Shown here piece by piece: positions 1-12,490 of a DNA stretch of 42,024 nucleotides; positions within the stretch are counted from its first letter, which is position 1, and every line of letters starts with the position of its first letter. The stretch covers positions 1 to 42,024 of the forward strand of contig JACPCG010000015.1 of the NCBI GenBank assembly GCA_016179925.1, written 5' to 3'. A program made the translations under genes and the position numbers. The stretch is from Candidatus Rokuibacteriota bacterium. Its GTDB lineage: Bacteria > Methylomirabilota > Methylomirabilia > Rokubacteriales > CSP1-6. Under the pieces are notes generated by a model, which saw nothing but the letters and a program-made list of their open reading frames with translations, had not been told where the DNA came from and ran no database searches.

Positions 1-2965
1 ACGCGACGTGACTTCGTCAAGGGCGCCGGGACGGGCGCCGCGGTCGTGGCGGCGACCGGGATCGAGGCGCCAGCCGAGGCCTACACCCCCAGGCTCAAGA
101 CGGCGGGGACCAGCCGGGTCAACTCGCTCTGCTACTACTGCGCCGTCGGCTGCGGCATCGTGGCGTCGGTCGCGGACGGCAAGGTCACCGCGATCGAGGG
201 CGACCGCGAGCACCCGATCAACCGCGGCGCGCTCTGCTCCAAGGCCCAGGCCTACATTCAGGTGCTCGACCATCCCCAGCGCCTCACCAAGGTGCTCCAC
301 CGGGCGCCGGGCGCCACCGAGTGGGAGGAGAAGCCGCTCGACTGGGCGCTGGCGGAGATCGCCCAGCGGATCAAGGCGACCCGCGATGCGACGTTCCGGG
401 AGACCGAGGAGGGCGTGACGGTGAACCGGACCGAGGCGCTCGCGGCGCTCGGCTCGGCGGTCATCGCGAACGAGGAGTGCTACCTGCTCACGAAGCTCAT
501 GCGGGGGCTCGGCGTCGTCTGGCTCGAGCACCAGGCCAGGATCTGACACTCCCCCACGGTGCCCGGGCTGGGCACGAGCTTCGGTCGGGGGGCGATGACC
601 AATCACTGGATCGACGTCAAGAACGCCGACGCAATCCTCGTCATGGGCTCCAACGCCGCCGAGAACCATCCGATCGCCTTCAAATGGGTGGAGGCGGCCA
701 GGGAGCGAGGCGCCGTGCTCATCAGCGTGGACCCCCGGTTCACCCGCACCTCCGCGATGGCCGACGTCTACGCTCCGCTGCGCTCGGGCGCGGACATCGT
801 GTTCCTCGGGGGCATGATCAGCCACGTCCTCACCAACAACCTCTTCCACCGGGAGTACGTGGTCGAGTACACCAACGCTTCGTTCCTGCTGGACCCGGCC
901 TTCGGCTTCAAGGATGGCTACTTCTCCGGCTGGGACCCGGACAAGAAGGCGTACGATCGCGCGACCTGGAAGTTCCAGCTCGAGGCCGACGGCACGCCGA
1001 AGCAGGACAAGAGCCTGAAGGATCCCCACACCGTCTTCCAGCACCTGCGGCGGCACTTCGCCCGCTACACGCCCGAGATGGTGGAGCGGGTCTGCGGCAC
1101 GCCCAAGGCCGACTTCCTCCGGGTGGCGGAGGCCTTCGCGCGGACCGGCGCGCCCGGCAAGGCCGGCACGATCATGTACGCCATGGGGGACGCAGCACTC
1201 CAAGGCTACCCAGCTCATCCGCACCGCCGCCATCCTCCAGATGCTCCTGGGCAACATCGGCGTGGCGGGCGGCGGCGTGAACGCCCTGCGCGGTCTCTCC
1301 AACGTCCAGGGCTCCACCGACATGGCCCTGCTCTTCCACATCCTGCCCGGCTACCTCGGCACGCCGACGCGGAAGGACCATCCGACGCTCCAGGCGTACC
1401 TGGAGAAGGAGACTCCCAAGGCCGGCTACTGGGTGAACAAGCCGAAGTTCTTCGTGAGCCTGCTCAAGGCCTGGTACGGGGAGGCCGCCAGGAAGGACAA
1501 CGAGTTCGCCTATCAGTACCTGCCGAAGAACTCCGGCAACTACAGCTACCTGGACCTCTTCGAGGCCATGTACGCGGGCAAGCTCAACGGGTTCATCGTC
1601 TCGGGCCAGAACCCGGCGGTCTCCGGGCCCAACTCCACGCTGGAGCGGAAGGCGCTGGAGCGGCTGGAGTGGCTCGTGGTCCGCGATCTGTTCGAGACCG
1701 AGACGGCGGCGTTCTGGAAGGGGCCCGGCGTGGATCCCGCGAAGGTCGCCACCGAGGTCTTCCTGCTTCCCGCCGCCACGCACCTCGAGCGGGAGGGGAG
1801 CTACACGAACTCGGGGCGCTGGCTCCAGTGGAAGTGGAAGGCGGTGGACCCGCCGGGGGACGCGCGCTCGGACGGCTGGTTCGCGAACCAGCTCGCGCTG
1901 CGGCTCAAGAAGCTCTACGGGGGCTCCAGGGCTCCCAAGGACCAGCCGATCCTCGCCCTGACGTGGGACTACGGCGACGGCGAGCCGAACCTCGAGAAAG
2001 TGCTGGCCGAAGTCAACGGCCACACCGTGGCCGACGGCAAGCCCGTCAAGAGCTTCGCGTTCCTGGCCGACGACGGCTCGACGGCGTGCGGCAACTGGAT
2101 CTACTCGGGCGTCTTCCCGGCGGAGGGTCAGAACCGGGCCAAGTCACGCAAGGCCGACCCGCCGGAGAGCCTCGGCATCAACGCGGGCTGGGGGTTCTCG
2201 TGGCCCGCGAATCGACGGGTTCTCTACAACCGCGCCTCGGCCGACCCGAAGGGCCAGCCGTGGAACAAGGAGAAGGCGCTCATCCAGTGGGATCCGAACG
2301 CGGAGCTTCCCGACGGCAAGAAAGGCAAGTGGGTCGGCCCGGATGTCCCCGACTTCCGGCCCGACCTCGCCCCGGATGCCAAGGGCGGCGGCAACCCATT
2401 CATCATGCGCCCGGACGGCAAAGGGGGCCTCTGGGCCCCGCTGGCCGAGGGGCCCTTTCCGGAGCATTACGAGCCGGTGGAGTCGCCGGTGCGGAACTTG
2501 CTCTCGCGGGTGCAGTTCAATCCGCTCGCGGCGATCTACAAGGCGGACCTCGACCGGCTCGGCGATCCGAAGGAGTTCCCCATCGTCGCCACCACCTACC
2601 GGCTCACCGAGCACCTGCACACGGGCTCGATCACCCGCAATCTTCCCTGGCTCGTGGAGCTGATGCCGAATCTCTTCTGCGAGATGTCGCGGGAGCTGGC
2701 GGCAGAGAAGGGGATCAAGAACGGGGATCCGGTGCTCGTGAAATCGGCGCGCGGCGAGGTCCGCGCCGTGGCCTACGTGACCGGTCGCCTCAAACCATTC
2801 AAGCTCGGCGACCGCGTGGTCCATGAGGTCGGGATCCCCTGGCACTGGGGATTCATGGGGATGGCGAAGGGCGATTCCGCCAACCTGCTCACCCCCCACG
2901 TCGGAGACGCCAACACGCGCATCCAGGAGTCCAAGGCGTTCCTCGTGGACGTGAGAAAGGGTTGA
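1..2965 (+). CDS. fdnG: Formate dehydrogenase alpha subunit, selenocysteine-containing, 5' partial and frameshifted
   Basis: Catalytic molybdopterin subunit of a periplasmic formate dehydrogenase (formate to CO2 plus two electrons). The first visible codons read RRDFVKGAG, the core of a twin-arginine signal, so only a few N-terminal codons lie outside the window. A 4Fe-4S motif CYYCAVGC (nt 130-153) is followed by the fourth Cys in ALCSKAQ. An in-frame TGA at 544-546 falls in the context ARI-TGA-HSPTV, which matches the ARV-U-HGPTV selenocysteine site of E. coli FdnG, and the frame continues as FdnG on both sides. At about 1186-1190 the frame changes: the family sequence YAMGWTQHS is recovered only if two bases are restored between atggg and gacg. 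From there to TGA 2963-2965 the protein is colinear with FdnG, including NSGRWLQW, NRRILYNRAS-like and GDANT motifs. This is either a two-base assembly deletion or a real lesion. The Fe-S subunit follows 10 nt later. Confidence 0.93.
544..592 (+). promoter_or_regulatory. Selenocysteine UGA and bacterial SECIS-like hairpin of the formate dehydrogenase
   Basis: The UGA (544-546) is followed by a perfect 6-bp stem, GTGCCC (559-564) with GGGCAC (570-575), closing a 5-nt loop GGGCT. The loop begins 18 nt after the UGA and opens with two G residues. A C-run at 551-555 can pair with the G-run at 587-592 as a lower stem. Distance and G-rich loop start agree with what is known of bacterial SECIS elements read by SelB. 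Whether this one works is inferred. Confidence 0.75.
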
Positions 2966-8266: not shown

Positions 8267-9100
8267 GTGACGCGCCCGCCGGCTCCGAGCGGCCCCGACT
8301 GGCCGGCGGCGGCGCTCGCCGTCGCCGGCCTCGCCGTCTCCGCGTATCTCACGTGGACCAAGTGGAGCGGCGCCACCGCGCTCTTCTGCGAGACCGGCAG
8401 CGGCTGTGACGTCGTCCAGGCGAGCCGCTACGCCATGGTCCTCGGCGTGCCGACGGCGGCGTGGGGCGTCGGGCTCTACGCGGTGATCGGCGGGCTCGCG
8501 CTCGCCGGGCTTTCTCCGCGGCGGTGGGTCTGGGCATACGCGCTCGCGGTCGCCGGCGTCGCGTTCTCCGGGTACCTGACCTGGATCTCGCTCGTCGAGC
8601 TCGGCGCCGTCTGCCCGTACTGCCTTGCCGACGCCGCTATCGCCGCGGTGCTCCTCGGATGGCTGCTCGCGCGGCGCCCCGCCCCGACCGGGCGCCGCGC
8701 TGCGACGCGGCGGAGCCGCGTGATCGCGATCGGGGTCGCCGCGGCCGTGGTCACCGTCGTCTTCGGTATGGGTGTCTTCGCCGCCGGCTCCCCCACGGGG
8801 GCGTCCGCCTACCAGGAGTCGCTCGCGCGTCACCTCACTGCGTCGGGCGCGATCTTTTACGGCGCCTACTGGTGACCCGCGTGCACCGAGCAAAAGGCCC
8901 GGTTCGGGCCCGCGGAAAAGCTGCTCCCGTACGTCGAGTGTGACGCGCGCGGGCGCGCGGCTGAGCCCGCGCGCTGCGACCGCGCCGCCGTCAGGCGCTA
9001 TCCCACGTGGCTCATCGCCGGCGCGCGCTACGAAGGCCTGATGACGCTGGACGAGCTGGCGCGCGCCTCGGGGTTTTCCGCGCCGGCGCCGGCGCGCTGA
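8267..9100 (+). CDS. VKOR-thioredoxin fusion, candidate selenoprotein (in-frame UGA at 8873)
   Basis: The N-terminal 200 residues are a bacterial vitamin K epoxide reductase homologue: four to five membrane helices, loop cysteines C41 and C47 in ETGSGCDVVQASRY, and the redox pair C116-P-Y-C119. These enzymes oxidise quinone-linked disulfides and drive periplasmic disulfide formation. A TGA at 8873-8875 seems to end the gene after FYGAYW. The same frame then stays open for 74 codons and encodes the rest of a thioredoxin-like domain: UPACTEQK, PYVECDARG, the cis-proline site RYPTW, and a stop at 9098-9100. Homologues carry CPHC where this gene has TGA-P-A-C, so residue 203 would be selenocysteine. 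Start is GTG 8267 behind GAGGAAAG. The alternative is a single-base nonsense mutation of TGC. Confidence 0.8.
8873..8910 (+). promoter_or_regulatory. Candidate selenocysteine UGA and SECIS-like hairpin in the VKOR gene
   Basis: Downstream of UGA 8873-8875 lies a perfect 6-bp stem, GGCCCG (8896-8901) with CGGGCC (8905-8910), and a GTT loop. The loop starts 26 nt after the UGA and begins with G. As I recall the rules for bacterial SECIS elements (loop about 16-37 nt from UGA, a G in its first two positions, stem of at least 4 bp), this fits, although such GC hairpins are common in a genome this rich in GC. Confidence 0.5.
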
Positions 9101-9253: not shown

Positions 9254-10225
9254 ATGGGCATGAAACGGAGTGCCATCCGAGTGCTCGGTGTCGCCGGCGG
9301 GGCGGCGGTCGCGCTGGTCGCCGTGGCCGTCCTCGGCTTACCCGGCCTGGCTCCAGCCCAACAGCCTTCCACGCCGGCGGCGGGCGCCCCGCTTCCCGCC
9401 GGATACGCCGGGGCGGAGGCCTGCAAGGCCTGCCACGAGGAGGTGGACCAGAAGTTCGCCGCGACGAAAATGGGGCGCCTCTTCCTCAAGCACCCCCGAA
9501 ACACACTCGAGCGCCTGGGCTGCGAGACCTGCCACGGCCCCGGGAAGGCCCACGTCGAAGCGGGCGGCGGCAGGGGCGTCGGCGGGATGATCAGCTTCGC
9601 GAAGAACGACAAGACGCCCGTCGAGAAGCGCAACGCCGTCTGCCTGCAGTGCCACCAAAAGTCCGCCCGGCTCTTCTGGCAGGGGAGCCAGCACGAGTCG
9701 CGCGACGTGGCGTGCACCAACTGCCACAAGATCATGGAGGACGCCTCCCCGAAGTTCCAGCTCGCCAAGGAGACCGTCATCGAGACGTGCGGCCAGTGCC
9801 ACCTCCAGAAACGGGCGCAGACCATGCGCTCCTCCCACATGCCGCTCCGCGAGGGCAAGATGACGTGCACCGACTGCCACAACCCCCACGGGACGGTGAC
9901 GCCGACGCTCCTCAAGGAGAACTCCCTCAACGAGACCTGCTACTCCTGCCACGCCGAGAAGCGCGGCCCCTTCCTCTGGGTCCACCCGCCGGTCCAGGAG
10001 AGCTGCGCCAACTGCCACGACCCCCACGGGTCGAACCACGAGAAGATGCTCAAGCTCGCGAAGCCGCGGCTCTGCCAGCAGTGCCACATCGAATCGCGCC
10101 ACCCCACGGAGCCACGCGGCAGGAGCTTCGACCAGGCGCGATTCGTGTTCGGACGCTCGTGCACGAACTGCCATGCGGTGATACACGGCTCCAACCACCC
10201 GTCGGGCAACGCGTTCAAGCGATAG
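9254..10225 (+). CDS. mtrA: Decahaem c-type cytochrome, MtrA/DmsE/PioA family
   Basis: A protein of 323 residues with a Sec signal peptide ending near LAPAQQ and ten CxxCH motifs: CKACH, CETCH, CLQCH, CTNCH, CGQCH, CTDCH, CYSCH, CANCH, CQQCH and CTNCH. Ten haems in about 33 kDa, with the recurrent CxDCHNPHG pattern and a partner barrel gene next door, identify the MtrA/DmsE/PioA group. These cytochromes insert into an MtrB porin and carry electrons across the outer membrane. The ATG at 9254 follows AAGGAGCG; a second ATG at 9260 is equally possible. A mismatched hairpin (9212-9237) sits just before the ribosome site. The next gene begins 10 nt after the stop. Confidence 0.93.
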   Translation: MGMKRSAIRVLGVAGGAAVALVAVAVLGLPGLAPAQQPSTPAAGAPLPAGYAGAEACKACHEEVDQKFAATKMGRLFLKHPRNTLERLGCETCHGPGKAHVEAGGGRGVGGMISFAKNDKTPVEKRNAVCLQCHQKSARLFWQGSQHESRDVACTNCHKIMEDASPKFQLAKETVIETCGQCHLQKRAQTMRSSHMPLREGKMTCTDCHNPHGTVTPTLLKENSLNETCYSCHAEKRGPFLWVHPPVQESCANCHDPHGSNHEKMLKLAKPRLCQQCHIESRHPTEPRGRSFDQARFVFGRSCTNCHAVIHGSNHPSGNAFKR

Positions 10226-10234
10226 GAGGCCGAG

Positions 10235-12490
10235 ATGAAAGCAACGAAAACGGCTCGGCTGCTCGTTGCAGTCTTGGCGATCCTCGGCCTCGCGGCTCCC
10301 GCGTCGGCCCAGACCCAGGTGTTCGGCCTGAACGTGGAAGGTGACATCGAGGCGGGGGGGCGCATCTACGGCCAGAAGCCGTCCAAGAGTGAATCCGCCA
10401 AGTTCGAGGAGTACCGGGACCTCCCCGAGCTGCCCTACCTGGGGCAGTTCCGGCTGAGGCTCTTCACGCCCGACGAGAGCTACTCCTCCGAGTTCGAAGG
10501 TTCCAAGTGGGGGCAGCAGGACCAGGAGTTCTCCCTCAGGACGGGCCGCCTCGGTCTCTGGGAGTTCGGGTTCGACTGGGATCAGACCCGTCACATCTTC
10601 TCGACCAACGCCAGGATGCTCGCGACGGAGTCCGCCCGCGGCGTGTTCACCCTGCCCTTTCCCCGGCCGGCGGGGGCCGCGTACAACACGGCACGGGAGC
10701 TCGACGAGATCAGCACCCGGTGGGACACGGCGCGGATCCTTTTCCGGCTCACCCCCACCCCCGACCTGGAACTGAGGGCGCAATACACGCGCACCCACAA
10801 GGATGGTGACCGCCCGATCGGCGTGCCGTTCGGCTTCAACGTCATCGAGGTGCTGGAGCCGATCGAGCAGACGGTCCACGACTTCAGGCTCCAAGCAGCG
10901 ATCGCGCGGGAGCAGTGGCAGCTCCAGGCCGGGTACACGCTCTCCGTCTTCCAGAACGCGCTGAGCTCCGTGACCGCCGACAACCCGTCGTCGGTTCTTG
11001 CTACTGACACGGCTTTCGTCGTCACGGCCACCGGGGGAACGAGCACGCCCATCGCGGGCCGGCTGTCGCTTCCGCCCGACAACATGGCGCACACGCTGAG
11101 CCTGGCGGGGGGCGTGAACCTCCCGTGGTGGCGGACGCGCGTGACGAGCAATCTCTCCTACAGCCTCTGGCTCCAGAACGACGACTTCCTTCCTCATACC
11201 CGAAACCCCAACATCGCGGCTGCAACTCCCGACCTGACGCTGCCGCAGACGAGCCTGAACGGCAACATCCAGATCTTCCTCCTCAACCTCAACGCCACGA
11301 GCCGGCCGCTACCGCCGCTTACGCTCTCGGCGAAGTACCGGCTCTATGACTACATGGATCTGAGCGACACGATCGTTTTCCCCGGCGTTGCGGAGACCGA
11401 CGCCAGCCTCGTGAGAGAGGTGCACCGCGCGGGCCGGTGGAGCTACATCAAGCACAATGCGGACGTCGACGGCCGGTGGCGGATCGTTCAGCCCGTGGCG
11501 CTCACCCTCGGCGCCGGGTGGGAGCGGTGGGACCGCAGCCCGCATCGGGAAGTCCCCGTGAGCGACGAGGTCTTCGGCAAGGCAGCCCTGGACCTGACCC
11601 CGTGGGACTGGCTCCTGGCGAAGCTCAAGTACATGCCCTCGTTCCGGCGGATCAACCGCTACGACACCCGTGCCCACGCGCTGCATACGACCACGGAGGA
11701 GGACGCGCTGTCCCCGCAGCTCCAGTCGTTTCAGCTCAGGAAGTTCGACGAGGGCGAGCGCGACCGCCAGCGTATCGACCTGCTGGTCCAGCTGATGCCC
11801 ACCGACACCCTCACCGCCACCCCGACGGTCGGCTGGCGGTACGACGACTACATCCGCTCGACCCTCGGCCTCCAGCAGGAGACGAGCTGGTCGGCGGGGC
11901 TGGACCTCAACTGGATGCCCGTCGAGCGCGTCGCGATCTTCGGCGGCTACATGTACGAGAACATTCTCCAGAAGCAGCGCTCCAGGTACCGTCCCGTGGT
12001 GACGACGGTGACGGCGCAATGCCCGGCGCCGCCGTGCACCTTCGACTTCGCCGACTTCGACTGGATCTCGGTCAACACCGACACCGTCGACACTTACCAC
12101 CTCGGGGTCAAGGTCAGCCTGATCCCCAAGGTGCTCGACTGGTCCATGAACGGGAACTACTCCAGCGCGCTCGGGAGGGTCGAGACGCGAAATCCGGTGC
12201 GCCCCGTAACCGGGACGGCCGCGCAGAACACGGCCGCCATCGCCAAGCGATGGCCGGCGTTCGAGGACACCCTGGTGAGGCTGGAGACCGGGCTCAAGTA
12301 CCACTTCTGGAAGAACTGGACCGCGGGCGTCGCCTACATCTTCGAGTCGTTCGAGAAGCACGACTGGCGGACCGACACGCTCAACCCCTTCTTCCCCGCG
12401 GTGGGACTGGGGGGCATCTGGCTCGGCAACGACCTGAAGGACTACACCGCGCACATCGTCGGCCTCACGCTCGCGTATCGTTTCAAGTAG
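10235..12490 (+). CDS. mtrB: Outer-membrane beta-barrel porin of the MtrB/PioB family
   Basis: A 751-residue protein with a Sec signal peptide (ARLLVAVLAILGLAAPASAQ) followed by about 26 alternating polar/hydrophobic strands rich in aromatic residues. It ends in LTLAYRFK, with aromatic Tyr and Phe close to the C-terminus as usual for barrel assembly. The immediately preceding decahaem gene gives the standard mtrAB/pioAB pair. The barrel sheathes MtrA so that electrons can pass between periplasm and outside. No surface MtrC/OmcA-type cytochrome follows, which resembles PioAB and simple MtrAB conduits. The N-terminus lacks the CxxC reported for Shewanella MtrB; one Cys pair (CPAPPC) occurs near nt 12018-12037 in a probable loop. 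Confidence 0.92.
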   Translation: MKATKTARLLVAVLAILGLAAPASAQTQVFGLNVEGDIEAGGRIYGQKPSKSESAKFEEYRDLPELPYLGQFRLRLFTPDESYSSEFEGSKWGQQDQEFSLRTGRLGLWEFGFDWDQTRHIFSTNARMLATESARGVFTLPFPRPAGAAYNTARELDEISTRWDTARILFRLTPTPDLELRAQYTRTHKDGDRPIGVPFGFNVIEVLEPIEQTVHDFRLQAAIAREQWQLQAGYTLSVFQNALSSVTADNPSSVLATDTAFVVTATGGTSTPIAGRLSLPPDNMAHTLSLAGGVNLPWWRTRVTSNLSYSLWLQNDDFLPHTRNPNIAAATPDLTLPQTSLNGNIQIFLLNLNATSRPLPPLTLSAKYRLYDYMDLSDTIVFPGVAETDASLVREVHRAGRWSYIKHNADVDGRWRIVQPVALTLGAGWERWDRSPHREVPVSDEVFGKAALDLTPWDWLLAKLKYMPSFRRINRYDTRAHALHTTTEEDALSPQLQSFQLRKFDEGERDRQRIDLLVQLMPTDTLTATPTVGWRYDDYIRSTLGLQQETSWSAGLDLNWMPVERVAIFGGYMYENILQKQRSRYRPVVTTVTAQCPAPPCTFDFADFDWISVNTDTVDTYHLGVKVSLIPKVLDWSMNGNYSSALGRVETRNPVRPVTGTAAQNTAAIAKRWPAFEDTLVRLETGLKYHFWKNWTAGVAYIFESFEKHDWRTDTLNPFFPAVGLGGIWLGNDLKDYTAHIVGLTLAYRFK

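Follow-up and report, generated by a model that had tools for sequence, protein, structure and literature searches.

The gene at positions 8267 to 9100 of the window, the whole stretch of 42,024 nucleotides that was analysed, very probably (probability of about 0.95) encodes a selenoprotein. From its sequence, the product is predicted to join a membrane VKOR domain to a periplasmic thioredoxin domain whose CxxC motif would carry selenocysteine (Sec) as its attacking residue. This Sec-VKOR represents a broad family rather than a single gene. The selenoprotein interpretation had been put forward in a first-pass annotation of this DNA; it is supported by the presence of TGA in 21 of the 24 same-phylum homologues that reach the site (TGT or TGC in the remaining three), by SECIS-type hairpins in 47 out of 47 Sec forms and by the occurrence of SelB in the lineage. 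The genome bin from which the window comes has 3.57 Mb in 223 contigs and is 81% complete. The features involved are the following:

8267 to 9100, + strand: Sec-VKOR gene, a VKOR-thioredoxin fusion with a GTG start, 277 residues, predicted Sec at residue 203, terminal stop TGA at 9098-9100
8267 to 8872, + strand: VKOR domain, transmembrane helix 5 and start of the thioredoxin domain, with the catalytic cysteines C41, C47, C116 and C119
8873 to 8875, + strand: UGA predicted to be read as selenocysteine (U203), position 1 of the U-P-A-C redox motif, corresponding to C209 of the Synechococcus enzyme
8876 to 9097, + strand: remainder of the thioredoxin domain, 74 codons, with the resolving C206, an extra pair C225/C237 and the cis-Pro motif YPTW
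8896 to 8910, + strand: core of the putative bSECIS hairpin, GGCCCG[GUU]CGGGCC, loop 26 nt past the UGA, synonymous positions frozen in 21 relatives
9254 to 10225, + strand: DmsE-family decaheme c-type cytochrome, a neighbour and possible client or partner
10235 to 12490, + strand: MtrB/PioB-family outer-membrane protein, a neighbour
544 to 546, + strand: UGA (Sec) in fdhA, which encodes formate dehydrogenase alpha, motif U-H-S-P, an internal control

As described in the first-pass annotation, the frame is interrupted only once, by the TGA at 8873-8875, which follows FYGAYW and precedes PACTEQKARFG. The 74 codons located beyond this TGA are intact, include the RYPTW motif and end at a stop of their own, and the UGA replaces the first cysteine of the thioredoxin CxxC. 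With a Sec codon at this position, the protein departs from the standard CxxC of thioredoxins and carries a UxxC variant. The N-terminal part of the product matches the Pfam VKOR domain (E 4e-25). In an alignment of 19 sequences, C41 and C47, the cysteine pair of the VKOR loop, are invariant, as are C116 and C119, the CXXC at the VKOR quinone site; all eight catalytic or paired positions, including U203, C225 and C237, are invariant in this alignment. The fold predicted for the read-through protein is complete (mean pLDDT of 91.5), and a Foldseek search with it returns the VKOR-Trx protein of Synechococcus first (E 1e-15). In another family of the same class (L022-L031), a different VKOR domain is found in open frames of 555-605 residues whose thioredoxin half remained unmatched.

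The UGA column was read directly for 16 of the same-phylum homologues. Scanning about 85,000 species genomes for the pattern Y-G-A-x-W-UGA-P-x-C led to 41 matches, 40 of which are genuine VKOR-Trx genes with frames intact on both sides of the UGA; the last one, from Verrucomicrobia (L088), was rejected as a chance match with short frames, without VKOR and without selB. The 40 TGA forms belong to Rokubacteria/NC10, Nitrospirota, Desulfobacterota, other deltaproteobacterial records and SAR324. They span 37-72% G+C, and three of the assemblies are recorded as chromosomes. For example, Malonomonas rubra DSM 5091, a named strain, has both a TGA form of Sec-VKOR and SelB. In a sample of 396 Nitrospirota genomes, the protein is present in 37, with one TGA in 12 and none in 25. 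Altogether, the U203 column holds UGA in 47 non-redundant forms and Cys in 23, and on a tree of 69 proteins Sec and Cys must have replaced one another at least twice. An exchange of Cys and UGA at this column, which the first-pass annotation had proposed to look for, is seen within the window's own family, to which the Cys form G002 belongs. The residues surrounding this position also differ within the phylum, the Sec forms being almost all U-P-A-C whereas the Cys forms are C-P-H-C.

VKOR enzymes accept electrons from thioredoxin-like partners and pass them to quinones (PMC4555120). In Sec-VKOR, SelB and tRNA-Sec would read the UGA at 8873-8875, assisted by the hairpin located just downstream. 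The oxidised U203-C206 selenylsulfide would then accept electrons from periplasmic protein thiols, and the reduced thioredoxin domain would pass them through the loop cysteines C41/C47 to C116/C119, which could in turn deliver them to a membrane quinone. The selenylsulfide would thus act as the oxidant of client proteins and be regenerated through the loop cysteines. We infer the insertion of Sec, the direction of electron flow, the use of quinone and the kinetic gain. From chemistry alone, Sec would not be the evident choice for an oxidising relay, since selenium lowers the redox potential. Selenium at position 203 might speed up the exchange steps and make regeneration of the site easier. 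Replacement of Cys by Sec was reported to raise the rates of oxidative protein folding (PMC5514408), which would fit such a kinetic reason for Sec in VKOR-Trx. It could also be imagined that the UGA acts as a selenium switch, giving the full VKOR-Sec-thioredoxin relay when selenium is available and a stop at W202 when it is not, but this is a long shot. If it were true, the membrane VKOR ending at W202 would have to use separate thioredoxin-like partners, and the supply of selenium would determine by which route periplasmic disulfides are formed.

A gene for a cytochrome with ten CxxCH motifs adjoins Sec-VKOR in five Rokubacteria/NC10 loci (the window, L170, L176, L178 and L180), and in most of them a gene for a large outer-membrane protein lies beside that of the decaheme cytochrome; the families of the neighbours were tested in the window, the other loci being read by CxxCH count and length. 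The MtrB-like frame of the window has no internal stop. These cytochromes or porins may be clients of Sec-VKOR. The c-type cytochromes require reduced CxxCH motifs. This neighbourhood and the UxxC motifs of known Sec thioredoxin-like proteins (PMC13188914) would both suit a selenoprotein whose thioredoxin domain acts chiefly in reduction or isomerisation, for instance in the maturation of multiheme cytochromes, instead of feeding VKOR as an oxidant. Such a function seems unlikely: the four invariant catalytic cysteines of VKOR fit a complete relay for de novo disulfide formation, and the arrangement of cytochrome and outer-membrane protein genes is absent from the Nitrospirota loci that were read.

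The hairpin noticed downstream of the UGA is present as first annotated, i.e., GGCCCG[GTT]CGGGCC with its loop at 26 nt. Taken alone, it is weak evidence because 44 of the 814 TGAs of this GC-rich window have a hairpin as strong, and it is its conservation across relatives that carries weight. All 47 non-redundant Sec forms have a SECIS-type hairpin, of two lineage-specific kinds, neither of which is found in the Cys forms. In Rokubacteria/NC10, this hairpin is AGGCCCG[GUU]CGGGCCU or a near variant, with the loop 26 nt past the UGA; in the remaining Sec forms, it is GAACAGA[AGGA]UCUGUUC or a near variant, with the loop 19 nt past the UGA. The published bSECIS rules place the hairpin 16-37 nt past the UGA with a loop of 3-9 nt and a G in the first two loop positions (PMC13188914), and the 47 hairpins all agree with the rules for spacing, loop and stem. 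The family (L066-L106) has two main branches, in which one codon is served by hairpins that differ in kind and in distance (19 and 26 nt).

Codon usage also indicates that this hairpin is under selection. In the two Sec groups, pairs of sequences with the same residue show a codon identity of 0.956 and 0.976 over codons +6 to +11, compared with at most 0.80 and 0.72 in six-codon windows away from the UGA site. In the Cys forms, codons +6 to +11 show an ordinary value of 0.57. In the same way, codon +8 in hairpins of the second kind specifies different residues (D, F, S, V, A) yet always ends in T, because this last base is paired in the stem. Isolated, the hairpin of the window has an energy of -10.3 kcal/mol, beyond the published SECIS threshold of -7.5 kcal/mol, whereas most hairpins of the second kind have -6.8 to -7.0 kcal/mol. 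The 50-nt folds of two examples of the second kind reach -15.9 and -17.7 kcal/mol and include the SECIS hairpin; the free 50-nt fold of the window favours a competing pairing (-21.4 kcal/mol) over the conserved hairpin. Folds of two Cys forms (L018 and L137), excised at wrong coordinates, were disregarded, and the contrast between Cys and Sec hairpins comes from the search by spacing, loop and stem. Rfam has no family at the window hairpin, with only three sub-threshold chance matches. In one Cys form of the window's family (L018), CCGAGCA[8 nt]TGTTCGG (-8.3 kcal/mol) makes up an imperfect hairpin that may be what is left of a SECIS after replacement of Sec by Cys.

Stand-alone VKORs devoid of thioredoxin domain exist (PMC4555120), and the UGA could be viewed as a purposeful stop producing such an enzyme, with a near-cognate tRNA reading through it now and then. 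This is very improbable: termination would cut the predicted thioredoxin fold past its first strand, and the UGA lies on the first Cys of the CxxC, followed by a frozen SECIS-like hairpin, in genomes having SelB.

The Sec decoding machinery is widespread in the lineage. SelB was found in 83 of 95 genomes of the window's phylum, including 18 of the 21 same-phylum UGA carriers (one as a split match), and tRNA-Sec in 22 of the 25 genomes tested. The nearest relative has selC, selA and selB clustered within 5 kb. Outside the phylum, 12 of the 13 Sec-VKOR genomes tested have SelB; the chance-match genome lacks it. In the window's own bin, the search for sel genes advised in the first-pass annotation gave selD but no selA, selB or selC over the cut-off, which probably reflects the incompleteness of the bin (81% complete). 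Most simply, a single sel cluster would be missing from the assembly. The best SelB-like match in the own genome (L001) was rejected, its sequence being read as that of translation factor IF-2. A gene flanking selB in the nearest relative has no match in the own genome, in a search without control that says nothing on an assembly gap.

The selD of the own bin scores over the cut-off and has an in-frame UGA in the motif GUASK, at the known Sec position. This UGA (L182; own genome C102) falls at residue 511 of frame 1, in the active site, and a strong hairpin, CTCCTGGA[GATC]TCCAGGAG, lies behind it. Furthermore, the claim that the same organism has a formate dehydrogenase with a Sec codon holds: the UGA of fdhA, in the motif UHSP, is followed by the bSECIS-like hairpin GTGCCC[GGGCT]GGGCAC, whose loop is located 18 nt past the UGA. 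The fdhA gene shifts frame near a G run at window positions 1186-1240, its two parts being matched by a single NCBIfam model, each in a frame of its own; this change probably results from an assembly or sequencing slip.

The missing selA, selB and selC of the own bin could be explained if an altered tRNA, not the Sec machinery, recoded UGA to Trp, Cys or another amino acid. This is scarcely conceivable. In 27 of the 47 Sec genes, the window's included, UGA is also the terminal codon, so UGA still acts as a stop elsewhere in the same genes, without global reassignment. SelB and tRNA-Sec occur generally across the lineage, and fdhA and selD, the further UGA genes detected in the bin, are textbook Sec genes.

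The last alternative is a pseudogene or a sequencing error, in which a Cys-type VKOR-Trx acquired a nonsense mutation and everything beyond it is a decaying remnant. The bin is incomplete, and the fdhA frameshift of the same window indicates that local errors exist. The first-pass annotation had named close relatives with TGC as evidence against Sec; the nearest homologues (73, 70 and 68% identity) instead have TGA with an intact downstream frame. All 47 non-redundant Sec forms have an open frame of at least 60 codons downstream of the UGA. The pN/pS ratio of the Rokubacteria group is 0.58 downstream of the UGA vs 0.59 upstream, and since the downstream value is not above the upstream one, there is no decay past the UGA; in the Nitrospirota/Desulfobacterota group, it is somewhat higher downstream (0.40 vs 0.32 upstream). 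A TGA at the same codon in 47 genes from several phyla, all with an open downstream frame, refutes the pseudogene or error explanation; the lack of relaxation in the Rokubacteria group also speaks against it. The region of Sec-VKOR past the UGA is neither decay nor REASSIGNMENT.

A selenoprotein of this type appears to be new. A review of May 2026 lists 119 prokaryotic selenoprotein families or subfamilies, none of them VKOR, and its text contains neither VKOR nor vitamin K (PMC13188914). NCBIfam release 20 has no model reaching its cut-off for Sec-VKOR. In openly available full-text literature, only ferroptosis and unrelated papers were found; within these sources, the opinion of the first-pass annotation that no Sec-VKOR had been described stands. 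Sec-VKOR is thus most likely a real, apparently undescribed selenoprotein family, which would act as a quinone-linked disulfide generator with a Sec-Cys selenylsulfide. The prokaryotic selenoproteome would gain a widespread and apparently unlisted family. By homology, selenium would be placed in the machinery that forms new disulfide bonds and sends electrons to quinone, which raises the question of the reason for selenium in an oxidising, periplasmic reaction. The two kinds of hairpin found at one codon could show how SECIS elements arise or get replaced. From a practical point of view, gene callers reading UGA as a stop would shorten the VKOR product and drop an entire domain.

Several known systems can be compared with Sec-VKOR. 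The MtrB/PioB-like GSU2204 and the ExtKL selenoproteins likewise use selenium near multiheme-cytochrome systems (PMC13188914), but these proteins are unrelated to Sec-VKOR, and the MtrB/PioB neighbour of the window reaches just 34.5 bits with the GSU2204 (seleno)protein model, a weak match given the cut-off of 350. Sec is also the first residue of the UxxC motif in Sec Trx, DsbA-like form 1, DsbG-like and thiol:disulfide interchange proteins (PMC13188914, Table 1); unlike these known thioredoxin-like families, Sec-VKOR includes a VKOR domain, and there is no VKOR among the 119 families or subfamilies of that list. The closest solved protein is the VKOR/thioredoxin protein of Synechococcus (PDB 3kp9, 4nv2, 4nv5, 4nv6), which aligns with residues 15-271, i.e., nearly the whole length (E 9e-39). 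Both proteins have a transmembrane VKOR domain, helix 5, a C-terminal thioredoxin domain and all the relay cysteines, C41/C47 corresponding to C50/C56, C116/C119 to C130/C133, U203 to C209 and C206 to C212. Where the Synechococcus enzyme has C209-P-H-C212, the window protein would have Sec-P-A-C, with a SECIS hairpin inside its coding sequence. Sec-VKOR is a new Sec form of a known enzyme, and its chemistry is not of a new kind.
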